Source of the DNA: Candidatus Bathyarchaeota archaeon
GTDB taxonomy: Archaea > Thermoproteota > Bathyarchaeia > TCS64
Reading direction: 5' to 3'
Assembly: GCA_018396515.1 (NCBI GenBank)
Contig: JAGTQJ010000041.1
Coordinates: 3,592 to 11,464 of the forward strand
DNA length: 7,873 nucleotides
The notes under the pieces are model-generated. The model ran no database searches. It worked only from the letters and a program-made list of their open reading frames with translations, and was not told the DNA's origin. Shown in pieces: positions 2,807 through 7,583 of the stretch (positions are counted from its first letter, which is position 1; the number at the start of each line of letters is the position of its first letter). The translations under genes and the position numbers were made by a program.

Positions 2807-2842
2807 TTTTATCGGTCGACGGATCTTTTAGGCAGAGAGTTG

Positions 2843-2898
2843 TATATTGTGGCGGCATTAGCTATTGGTGGTACTAGAAGGCTTATATTGTGGTACCA
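2843..2898 (+). promoter_or_regulatory. vapBC promoter with repeated motifs, possible VapB operator
   Basis: TATATTGTGG occurs twice, at 2843-2852 and 2884-2893; the second copy supplies the TATA element (about 2883-2889) just before vapB. TGGTAC occurs at 2869-2874 and 2891-2896, 22 bases apart (about two helical turns); the second is part of the perfect palindrome TGGTACCA (2891-2898). These repeats bracket the TATA box, as would be expected for autorepression by an AbrB-fold VapB or VapBC complex, a common mode for this module type. Binding is inferred. Confidence 0.45.
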
Positions 2899-2905
2899 AC
2901 TAGGC

Positions 2906-3187
2906 ATGTCTGTGAGGCCCTTGAAGAGGGTAAGGCTAAAGGTTCATGTGAAGGGCAGGGTTACCATCCCAAAGGAGTTCAGGGAGAGGCTCGGCATCAA
3001 AGAGGGGGATCAGGTTGAGGCGGTTTTGTTGGAGGATCAAAGGGCTTTATTGATCCATGCCCCGGCAAGGGGCTGGCTTGAAGATATGCTCGACGTATTG
3101 AGGAGGGTTTTTCCCGACAAGTCGACGGGGGAGATAATGAATGAGCTCAGGCGGGGATGGAAAGAATACGAAGGAGAAAGTGTTTAA
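2906..3187 (+). CDS. vapB: SpoVT/AbrB-type antitoxin (VapB-like)
   Basis: The protein is 93 residues from the ATG at 2906. Residues 8-52 form a swapped-hairpin AbrB domain: RVRLKVHVKGRVTIPKEFRE, then LGIKEGDQVEAVLLEDQRALLI, with the diagnostic GRVTIPKEFRE followed by the LGIKEGD turn. This domain binds DNA as a dimer. The C-terminal 40 residues (WLEDMLDVLRRVF and then a charged helix ending EGESV) are the likely toxin-binding tail. An upstream ATG at 2840 would add 22 residues with no family resemblance and would run through the promoter repeats; a GTG at 2912 lies about 26 bases after the TATA centre, so a leaderless GTG start is an alternative. The gene overlaps the toxin gene, so the pair is one operon. 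It should neutralise VapC and repress its own promoter. Confidence 0.85.
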   Translation: MSVRPLKRVRLKVHVKGRVTIPKEFRERLGIKEGDQVEAVLLEDQRALLIHAPARGWLEDMLDVLRRVFPDKSTGEIMNELRRGWKEYEGESV

Positions 3188-3644
3188 AGTCTGCCTTGAT
3201 ACTAGCATCTTCATCAATGCTAGGAGCGAGTGGGAGAAGGGATCTGAAAAATCCAGAAGCCTACTTAGATCCATTAGAGATGGAGAAGCCCTGGGCGTCA
3301 TTTCGACTATAACTATAGCGGAGCTACTCACTGGGGCCTATCGGAAGGGGGTTGAGGAAGCTAATAGGTTGAAGGCTGATTTTAGGGCTTTCGAGTCCTC
3401 AGGATCCCTCATCATGGACTTGAATTTCCCTTTAGCAGACATGGTAGGTGAACTTTGTGCGAGGTATAACACTAGGATAAGGCCCGATGTGATAATCGTA
3501 GCATCAGCCCTAATGGCTAGAGCGGATGTGGTTGCCACGAGAGATATAGACCATTTCAGTCGATACAAAAATGAGGTATGGATCGCCGAACCAGAAGAGG
3601 TTCTATTGAAGCTCCAGGATCATAAGGGTATAAGAAGCCCTTGA
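3180..3644 (+). CDS. vapC: PIN-domain toxin, VapC family ribonuclease
   Basis: The product is a 154-residue PIN domain. The four acidic residues of the Mg-dependent nuclease site are visible: D7 in CLDTSIFINA, E48 in TIAELL, D103 in RPDVIIVASAL and D122 in ATRDIDHF. VapC toxins cut RNA, frequently tRNA or rRNA, and are held inactive by the cognate antitoxin. I chose GTG at 3180, which overlaps the last codons of vapB by 8 bases, because it has an AAGGAG sequence just upstream and places the first beta strand (FKVCLDTS) at the N-terminus as in other VapC proteins. The in-frame ATG at 3141 would add 13 polar residues. All catalytic residues are present, so the toxin looks functional. Position next to a tRNA gene is noted but does not show the target. 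Confidence 0.88.
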   Translation: MFKVCLDTSIFINARSEWEKGSEKSRSLLRSIRDGEALGVISTITIAELLTGAYRKGVEEANRLKADFRAFESSGSLIMDLNFPLADMVGELCARYNTRIRPDVIIVASALMARADVVATRDIDHFSRYKNEVWIAEPEEVLLKLQDHKGIRSP

Positions 3645-6149: not shown

Positions 6150-7232
6150 TCACCTCGTCACTCTCAGCTCCAGCATCCTCTCAAGGTTTTTGGGGTGCCT
6201 CTTGAAGTATTCTCTTACCGGCTCCAGTATCCTTATCATCGCCTCGGCCACGGCGTTCTTGAGGTCTAGGGGGTGGAGCTCCCCAGAGGTGTAGAGCCTC
6301 TCAAGCTCGGAGTAGCTATTCACCGTGAGCCTTCCGCCGTACCTAGCTGGCCGCTCCACATCGAGGGATCCCATGTGGGGGAAGACCACCAGCCTAGCAT
6401 GTTCAAGGACTGGATTCCCCTCCGCAGACCTGGGAGGGCAGAAGGCCATCCTGTACTTCTCCCTTATGGTTTCAGGATCGTCGTTCACCCAGATTGCCCC
6501 TTTCTCCACACTCTTCGACATCTTCATCCTTATGCTCCTGTCTATGCCTTTATCCTCGTCGAAGACACCCTCAACACCCTCCCCTTGGAGACCTGGGAGG
6601 AGGGGGGAGTGGAGGCAGATTGGGGGCTTGAAACCCAGCTTGGGGGCCAGCTCCCTAGCCAGCATATGAACCTTCCTCTGGTCCATCCCGGAGCAGGCGC
6701 AGTCCAGCTCCATATGGAATATGTCGCTCGCCTGCATGGCCGGGTAGAGCATCCATGCGGCCTCCACATCGCCCGCCTCGAGGCTCCTACCCATGATCGG
6801 CAGGGTGCGCTGGATCCTCTTGAGAGAAGAGGCCTTCAGGATCCTCACGACCTTCTCCCAGTAGTCACTGCTGTCCACGATGTCGGAGGCCCAGACATAT
6901 CGGACCTTCCCCTCCGGCAGGCCGAGGGCGGTGAAGCAGTCCTTAAAGTACTCCCCGCCTATCCTGATATTCTCCATGACCCCTCCGAGCTTGTTGTTTA
7001 TCCAGCTGTGCCAGTCGGCCAGGAAGATGATGAAATCGAAACCCGCCTCAACCCAGTCGAGCATCTTCCTGCCAACTATGAGGCCTGTCCCAGCGTGCAT
7101 GAGGCCTGAGCACTCGAAGCCCACATAGCCCCTAGGGTGGTCCACGGTCTCAAGAAGAACCTTGAGCTCCTCCGGTGTGATAACCTCCTCAAGGTTTCGA
7201 ATGCACAGCTCATACCTCTCAGCCGGATCCAT
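6150..7232 (-). CDS. tyrS: Tyrosyl-tRNA synthetase, archaeal type
   Basis: This 360-residue class I synthetase charges tRNA-Tyr. Y36 in RGYVGFECSG, Y163, Q167 and D170 in YPAMQASDIF, and Q185 in SGMDQRKVHMLARE correspond to the tyrosine pocket. The HIGH-equivalent is HAGT at 46-49, and KMSKS is at 237-241. The GMDQRK segment and the short C-terminal domain are typical of archaeal/eukaryotic TyrRS rather than the bacterial form or TrpRS. Minor oddities are ECSG where EPSG is usual, CSG before MDQRK where a GG is usual, and about 20 extra residues between LLPGLQG and KMSKS. The ATG at 7232 is supported by the family N-terminus. The gene converges on gap with 11 bases between stop codons. Upstream lies a strongly structured 190-base element that may be a separate RNA or the tyrS leader. 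Confidence 0.94.
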   Translation of the reverse strand: MDPAERYELCIRNLEEVITPEELKVLLETVDHPRGYVGFECSGLMHAGTGLIVGRKMLDWVEAGFDFIIFLADWHSWINNKLGGVMENIRIGGEYFKDCFTALGLPEGKVRYVWASDIVDSSDYWEKVVRILKASSLKRIQRTLPIMGRSLEAGDVEAAWMLYPAMQASDIFHMELDCACSGMDQRKVHMLARELAPKLGFKPPICLHSPLLPGLQGEGVEGVFDEDKGIDRSIRMKMSKSVEKGAIWVNDDPETIREKYRMAFCPPRSAEGNPVLEHARLVVFPHMGSLDVERPARYGGRLTVNSYSELERLYTSGELHPLDLKNAVAEAMIRILEPVREYFKRHPKNLERMLELRVTR

Positions 7233-7269
7233 CTAGACTGCACCGGACGGGGAAGAAAATGTTCTCGGG

Positions 7270-7279
7270 CCATTTAAGG
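7270..7279 (-). promoter_or_regulatory. Possible proximal TATA box of tyrS
   Basis: On the minus strand CCTTAAATGG centred near 7275 would start transcription near 7249, giving a leader of under 20 bases to the tyrS ATG. It overlaps the perfect inverted repeat TTAAG-G-CTTAA at 7274-7284. If used, the structured element upstream is not part of the tyrS mRNA. Confidence 0.4.
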
Positions 7280-7284
7280 CTTAA

Positions 7285-7474
7285 GGGCGGGCGTCCCTGT
7301 CCCTCGCAACAAACTCTCGGCCTCATCGACTGGGCCTCGCCCTCCTAGGCCGAGCTCTCTCAGAGGCGAGGATTCCGACGCCCGCCCGCCCGCCTGTTCC
7401 ATGGCTGGGTAACCCCCTCCTCACAGGCTCCCTCGGGGAGGTCCGTCTGCATGGAGCGTCGTCTAGCGGCGGGC
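7285..7474 (-). ncRNA. Candidate structured RNA (independent ncRNA or tyrS leader)
   Basis: About 70% GC by hand count, with no credible protein. Domain 1: 7285-7295 (GGGCGGGCGTC) pairs perfectly over 11 bp with 7377-7387. Inside it CCTCGC 7302-7307 pairs with 7366-7371, then CTCGGCCT 7316-7323 with 7347-7354, then an apical GGGC 7332-7335 with 7339-7342. Domain 2 abuts it: GCCCGCC 7388-7394 pairs with 7468-7474, CCATG 7399-7403 with 7450-7454, and CCTCCTC 7416-7422 with GGGGAGG 7435-7441 (one G-U). Stems of this kind are symmetric, so the strand is not fixed by pairing; minus is preferred because a TATA-like TTAAAATTT (7504-7496) predicts a start near 7474, exactly the end of domain 2, and TTTTCTT follows at about 7261-7255. 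Signature motifs of RNase P, SRP RNA, 5S rRNA and tRNA are not present as far as I can judge. CCATG/CATGG followed by AACA on the minus strand is a weak H/ACA-like feature. Confidence 0.55.
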
Positions 7475-7478
7475 ATGT

Positions 7479-7509
7479 AAAGGTTATGAAACCAGAAATT
7501 TTAACCTTT
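7479..7509. repeat. 8-bp inverted repeat beside the structured element
   Basis: AAAGGTTA (7479-7486) and TAACCTTT (7502-7509) are perfectly complementary around a 15-base AT-rich spacer that contains the minus-strand TATA-like box. On the plus strand the hairpin is followed by T and would resemble a terminator; on the minus strand it could be an operator around the promoter. Confidence 0.4.
7496..7504 (-). promoter_or_regulatory. TATA-like element for the structured RNA / tyrS leader
   Basis: Read on the minus strand, TTAAAATTT follows an A/G-rich stretch (AAAAGG) that could serve as a BRE. Its centre near 7500 predicts initiation near 7474, where the outer stem of the structured element starts. 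Confidence 0.4.
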
Positions 7510-7583
7510 TCAGGGAGGGCCGATTGAACAAGCTCCAAAGCTTTATCCAATTATGTCGGGTGTTGGGCCCGCCAGCGAAGAGG

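Follow-up and report, generated by a model that had tools for sequence, protein, structure and literature searches.

A probable two-hairpin H/ACA guide RNA with clamped hairpins, conserved in Bathyarchaeota, and its predicted targets in 23S rRNA

The 7,873 nucleotides (nt) analysed here (the window; contig JAGTQJ010000041.1 of a Candidatus Bathyarchaeota archaeon, positions 3,592 to 11,464) contain, between tyrS and an aminotransferase frame, a gap free of protein genes in which a compact, G+C-rich element lies. What is this element? An earlier note on the same DNA had described two long abutting stems, and both are present exactly where it placed them: one of 11 perfect base pairs (bp) joins 7285-7295 with 7377-7387 (hereafter clamp II), another of 7 perfect bp joins 7388-7394 with 7468-7474 (clamp I), and the two meet at 7387/7388. 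G+C content is 69% over the 194-nt stretch 7283-7476, in agreement with the note's figure of about 70%. Its remark that the flanks are far more AT-rich held for the 60 bases at 7480-7539 (40% G+C) but not for the 60 on the tyrS side (7220-7279, 55%). We conclude that the element is very probably a conserved two-hairpin H/ACA guide RNA encoded on the minus strand, predicted to direct pseudouridine (Psi) formation at U2586 and at U1915 and/or U1917 of 23S ribosomal RNA (rRNA). This identification relies on the H/ACA anatomy of both hairpins, on the rRNA sites that their guide arms match and on a sub-threshold match to the archaeal H/ACA RNA HgcG. The earlier note had set a guide RNA aside, and in this respect it is contradicted by the same three lines of evidence.

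Both strands of the element folded better than all 200 dinucleotide shuffles (minus strand, z -3.0; plus strand, z -3.9). Folding of the single sequence therefore left the strand undecided, and the minus strand was chosen on conservation. Homologues, which the earlier note had proposed to collect, were sought in 61 genomes, namely the window's own and 60 relatives, and strong ones (E 5e-18 or better) were found in 23 of the relatives. A class-wide search with a covariance model built from 23 order-level sequences gave a match in 206 of 256 genomes, and in 112 of the 120 of high completeness. Covariance model R1 fitted the window region over its full length with 214 bits, the window copy being among the model's own sequences. 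All 56 rows later scored with the model came from genomes already matching it, so that their 56/56 is no test of it. Fourteen matches were returned by a DNA-pattern search, and those at L060, L061, L064 and L069, where the model found nothing, were taken as chance. No model match was obtained in G001, a genome of the window's own genus; since no tyrS homologue was found there either, the missing copy is likely due to an assembly gap. A second model match, possibly a second copy of the RNA, was observed in G118 (L189, G118:C1:1415661) and also in G186 and G128. The minus-strand RNA would have its 5′ end near 7476 and its 3′ end near 7284.

Covariation of the paired positions had been proposed as a test in the earlier note, and it was strong in both long stems. 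Left unaided, RNAalifold drew both clamps on the 23 order-level sequences, with 38 pairs, 17 of them showing a double change. In addition, six helices were written by hand on two alignments sharing no sequence: A2, of 23 order-level sequences (L022 and L025, truncated or partial, left out), and A5, of 35 of the 44 divergent rows (L112, L115, L119, L124, L131, L132, L134, L135 and L136 were excluded on visual inspection following A4, being atypical or poorly placed). In A5, 95.9% of the pair cells held a standard pair, compared with a shuffled mean of 88.1%, and 23 of the 37 pairs changed on both sides; the corresponding values in A2 were 92.3% and 24 of 42. None of 500 shuffles reached either value in either alignment. 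When one strand was slid by 1-3 columns, pairing fell to 30-47% (A5) and 37-50% (A2), a comparison that favours the hand-written structures, each of which was taken from a single row (L098 for A5, L001 for A2). Covariation was present in all six helices of both alignments, including the lower and upper stems of the two hairpins (helices 2, 3, 5 and 6). One pair of clamp I in A5 was A-U in 16 of the 35 rows and G-C in another 16, and one pair of clamp II was C-G in 25 rows and U-A in 8. Because they covary, both long stems are more than chance. Taken together with the homologues and the model matches, these results support the two-domain, conserved structural RNA of the earlier note, on the minus strand.

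Read on the minus strand, each half of the element has the parts of an archaeal H/ACA hairpin: a lower stem, a pocket, an upper stem, a signature resembling a kink-turn or kink-loop (K-turn, K-loop) and an ANA box after the lower stem. The right guide arm of hairpin I starts 14 nt before the ACA in 58/58 sequences. In hairpin II the box is ACA, AAA or AGA, and the spacing is 14-16 nt in 56 of the 58 sequences and 17 nt in two, as measured by a text pattern that misparsed at least one row (L116). An ANA box 14-16 nt from the pocket is the arrangement given for archaeal H/ACA RNAs in two papers (PMC4652768; PMC7991803). Most members carry, by eye, a K-turn or K-loop signature of the GAGG...UGA type. 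The putative K-turn of window hairpin II is not a textbook one, since UAG stands where most relatives have GAG. By hand count the GA stem of hairpin II is 9-10 bp long (reference, 10 bp), and its register is ambiguous in hairpin I. Cbf5 and Nop10 were found in all seven genomes tested, the window's own included.

Cbf5 is the enzyme that would use the window RNA. In the window genome its gene (L172, G000:C89, 601-3195, minus strand) is an 864-aa frame, masked in part as X, that is split in frame by an intein-like part with LAGLIDADG-like motifs. The Cbf5 of G002, of the same genus, is uninterrupted and matches in one piece (341-aa frame).

The guide arms point to two sites in 23S rRNA. Compared with the 16S and 23S of G001, the arms of hairpin I found their best site at CUGGGU[UUAGA]CCGUC of 23S (score 33, next site 22), and those of hairpin II at AACUC[UGA]CUCUCUCA (score 32, next separate site 22); in each case none of 300 shuffles did as well. 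Aligned to Escherichia coli 23S, the first site presumably covers positions 2579-2594, where the 14-nt spacing would select U2586. The second is helix 69, in which, by the numbering we take to apply, a spacing of 14 nt would select U1915 and one of 16 nt U1917. The predicted targets are thus U2586, beside the peptidyl transferase centre, for hairpin I, and U1915 and/or U1917 of helix 69 for hairpin II. Across 14 23S loci, the hairpin I site was found in 11 and the helix 69 site in 13, three of these interrupted by an insertion, the remainder being partial records.

The insertions, in the 23S of G027 (L040), G165 (L149) and G221 (L156), lie inside or directly after the helix 69 target and are probably archaeal rRNA introns. 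Pairing with the full site would require prior splicing in these 23S, because the guide arm would span the insertion junction. A further observation concerns the hairpin I target: the ACGACG of the unpaired 5′ segment at 7455-7467 (minus strand) is, by eye and without statistics, complementary to a 23S CGUCGU that overlaps it, and this segment could compete with or precede guide pairing by hairpin I.

Hairpin I might instead act on U2585, or it might be an assembly chaperone that binds the peptidyl transferase loop and leaves it unmodified. Between the arm duplexes five nucleotides of the target (UUAGA) remain unpaired, where the textbook model has two, and two conserved mismatches flank the pocket, as such a role would allow. 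We nevertheless consider it improbable: the 14-nt spacing, the same in all 58 sequences, places U2586, and the haloarchaeal counterpart of hairpin I is assigned to 2586 in two papers (PMC2584109; PMC4652768).

At the gathering threshold, Rfam placed no family in the gap, and only a tRNA was found in the window. With a loose threshold, the best match was HgcG (RF00064) on the minus strand, with hairpin II aligned to the last hairpin of HgcG. Over the 61 genomes RF00064 gave weak matches in 7 and none above its cut-off, and in eight distant loci searched at E 0.01 Rfam returned nothing but a tRNA. These negatives would suit an RNA of truly new class that merely resembles H/ACA RNAs. Such a resemblance is scarcely credible, given that the H/ACA features occur twice with correct spacing and that both rRNA matches fall where other archaea have sites assigned to guides. 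The suggestion of the earlier note that the RNA may be undescribed thus stands in part: no Rfam family reaches threshold, and the clamp stems are new as far as the literature was searched, but the kind of RNA is known.

How does the RNA compare with known guides? HgcG (Pf7/Pab40 of Thermococcales) is likewise an archaeal multi-hairpin H/ACA RNA. Its consensus GGGuAACCCuGgCcggGCACA is spaced like GGGUUACCCAGCCAUGGAACA of window hairpin I, and the GUGUUAC of its right arm is similar to the GUGUUAG seen in distant members. HgcG has three hairpins, whereas the window RNA has two; moreover, in the Rfam structure line as printed, with stretches elided inside the first two hairpins, no helix encloses a hairpin of HgcG, whereas those of the window RNA are clamped. 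Another comparison is the haloarchaeal guide formed by HP1 and HP2 (Hvo1/Hvo2), also named sR-h45. It likewise has two hairpins and the same target pair, 2586 and 1915/1917, in the same numbering order (PMC2584109; PMC4652768), the window targets being predicted ones. By its published description it differs from the window RNA, in which the hairpins abut and both are clamped. One paper proposes Psi2621 (2586) and Psi1956/1958 (1915/1917) as the sites of HP1 and HP2 and regards these hairpins as homologous to stems II and III of Pf7, which corresponds in P. furiosus to Pab40; it adds that no 2586 modification was found in P. abyssi (PMC2584109). In another, the target of Hvo1 is L2621, those of Hvo2 are L1956 and L1958, and three motifs are given for Pab40 (PMC4652768). 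Because of the shared targets and the matching spacing of the HgcG consensus, we assign the window RNA to one functional line with HP1-HP2 and HgcG; the three may also share a common descent, judged from that consensus and the homology proposed in PMC2584109.

Canonical single-hairpin archaeal H/ACA RNAs of the Pab91 type have the pocket, the K-turn or K-loop in the upper stem and the ACA 14-16 nt from the pocket (PMC4652768; PMC7991803), features also read in the window RNA, where the K-turn and K-loop are putative. They consist, however, of one hairpin ending in the ACA box, whereas the window RNA has two, with the boxes in internal loops. Pyrobaculum sR201-sR210 are described as crenarchaeal H/ACA-like pseudouridine guides with altered lower parts (PMC4652768). 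Most of these have no lower stem, whereas the window RNA keeps its lower stem and adds a helix below it.

Several results weigh against the assignment of function and targets. The match to RF00064 missed the cut-off (21 versus 77 bits), and 50 of the 256 class genomes gave no model match, several good ones of family f19 among them. Targets had to be read in relatives' rRNA (G001 above), as the search of the window's assembly turned up neither 16S nor 23S. The sites were already known when the arms were trimmed; the short-register arm for U1915 was equalled by 31 of 300 shuffles, and the class consensus arms by 3 and 12 of 300. A free register scan, which included flanks outside rRNA and for hairpin I covered G001, G008 and G009, put the helix 69 site second in G001 (29, with a 16S site at 34) and in third place in both G008 and G009. 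The hairpin I site came out on top in G001 and in G008 but not in G009. A single clear best site for each hairpin was thus obtained with fixed arms only, not, for the helix 69 site, in the free scan. When hairpin I pairs with its site, two mismatches, U.U and A.A, remain beside the pocket. Finally, in G009 (L019) the hairpin I arms are altered (CAGACAAAC, UCCACCAG) and the clamp is weakened while the 23S target is unchanged, which suggests that hairpin I has lost its function in this one species.

What sets the window RNA apart is that each hairpin lies within its own closing helix, so that its ACA box is found in an internal loop and not in a free tail. Parsed by script, clamp I had at least 6 bp starting 0-1 nt after the ACA in 47 of 55 sequences, and clamp II reached 6 bp in 54 of 55; the script misread clamp I of the window (as a 5-bp alternative) and some order-level rows, and left L132 unparsed. 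The linker between the clamps was 0 nt in all 35 divergent sequences and 0-2 nt in all 23 order-level ones. Clamp strands scored a mean of 19.0 with their own partner, 15.5 when swapped and 13.5 when shuffled, and 15% of the shuffles matched or beat the own strand. As the strands are G+C-rich, this shuffled-strand test is weak, and the covariation counts carry the argument instead.

A phylum-wide model search matched 130 of 398 genomes. Outside the class, by our own count of the listing, 61 of about 323 genomes matched at E 0.05 or better, many of them weakly. Seventeen regions, 16 of them outside the class, were picked among the better matches. Hairpin II was parsed in 11 of these 16, and in 10 of the 11 a helix of 9-16 bp starts 0-1 nt after the ANA box; shuffles equalled it in 0 of 300 cases for nine and in 3 of 300 for one. 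In the remaining region, L188, no more than 6 bp were detected by the script (158 of 300 shuffles), and a 13-bp helix is seen by eye. Hairpin I was parsed in 7 of the 16: five had a helix of 6-11 bp that starts 0-3 nt past the box and was equalled by 0 to 17 of 300 shuffles, and L176 and L185 had no hairpin I clamp (118 and 119 of 300). Clamping thus extends beyond Bathyarchaeota without being universal. Tentatively, and with less than even confidence, we propose that throughout Thermoproteota the H/ACA guides directed at helix 69 and at the peptidyl transferase loop form closed, clamped rings, in which the ANA box is held by the lower stem on one side and a long closing helix on the other. 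Bathyarchaeota would stack two such rings into one double particle modifying both working faces of 23S, and a free 3′ tail would not be the only possible setting of an ANA box.

The RNA would be transcribed from a promoter of its own; L7Ae would then bind the K-turn or K-loop in both hairpins, and Cbf5 would bind each ACA box through its PUA domain. Pairing of rRNA with both pocket arms would bring the target uridine into the Cbf5 active site for conversion to pseudouridine. The abutting closing helices would stack, hold the two guide particles back to back and shield both RNA ends. The clamps may serve in end protection and heat stability, in precursor processing, or in holding the two particles together.

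Processing alone could account for the clamps if they were precursor stems that join the ends for trimming or ligation and are then cut off, leaving two ordinary H/ACA hairpins as the working RNAs. Archaeal rRNA precursors are matured from closed stems, and the closing helices mostly start right after the ANA box and differ in length (6-16 bp), as could be the case for processing stems. This explanation, which would leave the guide identity intact, is a serious one but in our judgement somewhat unlikely: no bulge-helix-bulge motif was seen by eye at the clamp ends of the window, and abutment of the clamps with 0-2 nt in 58/58 aligned Bathyarchaeota sequences is more than a processing stem requires.

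Should the mature particle retain its clamps, the view of the ANA box as a single-stranded 3′ tail would be too narrow, and RNAs of this build could escape search models in which such a tail is assumed. The RNA class and both target sites are already known; the lineage-wide member and its clamped build are not in print within the literature searched. This search covered the open part of PubMed Central (PMC), the main subscription-journal H/ACA papers lying outside it, and gave no description of a clamped build; within the same limited scope no guide-RNA paper for Bathyarchaeota was found. The present analysis offers a likely function for a class-wide RNA whose tested members matched no Rfam family at threshold, and predicts guides for functionally central Psi sites of rRNA in Bathyarchaeota.

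Since the RNA lies upstream of tyrS on the same strand, could it be a cis-acting 5′ leader sensing tyrosine or tRNA? In 31 of 56 loci a tyrS homologue follows on the strand of the RNA, in most cases at a distance of 36-76 nt. No such homologue was found beside the RNA in the other 25 (in a few for lack of sequence), and there the RNA is intact; its conserved single strands match rRNA, and a second TATA-like box, seen by eye, separates it from tyrS (Table 1). A leader function is therefore very unlikely, and we rejected it on the 25 loci without tyrS. The same loci and the separate box speak for two transcription units rather than a leader and its gene. Upstream of the RNA, the minus-strand TATA-like box that the earlier note had reported is present at 7511-7499, its core kept by eye in most order-level relatives, and the RNA likely has its own, predicted promoter.

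Table 1. Coordinates of the RNA, its parts and its neighbours in the window
Feature	Position	Strand	Basis or remark
Double H/ACA guide RNA gene (probable)	7284..7476	-	Full-length match to model R1, covariation; ends inferred
Clamp I, 5′ strand GCCCGCC	7468..7474	-	Pairs with 7388-7394; helix 1
Unpaired 5′ segment with ACGACG	7455..7467	-	Conserved across most relatives of the order
Hairpin I lower stem, 5′ strand CCAUG	7450..7454	-	Helix 2
Hairpin I left guide arm CAGACGG	7443..7449	-	Complementary to 23S CCGUC 3′ of target
Hairpin I upper stem and K-loop-like part	7413..7442	-	GAGG 7431-7434, UGA 7421-7423; K-loop by motif only
Hairpin I right guide arm UACCCAG	7405..7411	-	Complementary to 23S CUGGGU
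Hairpin I lower stem, 3′ strand CAUGG	7399..7403	-	Helix 2
ACA box I	7395..7397	-	Clamp I directly after; ACA pattern in 58/58 sequences
Clamp I, 3′ strand GGCGGGC	7388..7394	-	Helix 1
Clamp II, 5′ strand GGGCGGGCGUC	7377..7387	-	Helix 4; abuts clamp I
Hairpin II lower stem, 5′ strand CCUCGC	7366..7371	-	Helix 5
Hairpin II left guide arm CUGAGAGAG	7355..7363	-	Complementary to 23S CUCUCUCA in helix 69
Hairpin II upper stem CUCGGCC/GGCCGAG	7316..7354	-	Helix 6; K-turn-like UAG 7345-7347, UGA 7323-7325; apical GGGC/GCCC stem
Hairpin II right guide arm AGUUUGUU	7308..7315	-	Partly complementary to 23S AAC 1912-1914
Hairpin II lower stem, 3′ strand GCGAGG	7302..7307	-	Helix 5
ACA box II	7298..7300	-	14 nt from start of GUUUG
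Clamp II, 3′ strand GACGCCCGCCC	7285..7295	-	Helix 4
TATA-like box with transcription factor B recognition element (BRE), GAAAAGGTTAAAA	7499..7511	-	Sequence; core about 25-28 nt before first clamp base/predicted start
Second TATA-like box	7280-7270	-	By eye; between RNA and tyrS
tyrS (tyrosyl-tRNA synthetase; name from the earlier note)	6150..7232	-	Open reading frame; same strand, downstream of RNA
Aminotransferase frame (name from the earlier note)	starts 7624	+	Open reading frame; other border of gap

Elsewhere in the window, a tRNA-Glu (TTC) gene occupies 2728-2806 on the plus strand. On the same strand, at 2840-3644, two overlapping frames resemble, by eye, a pair of AbrB-type antitoxin and PIN-domain toxin.
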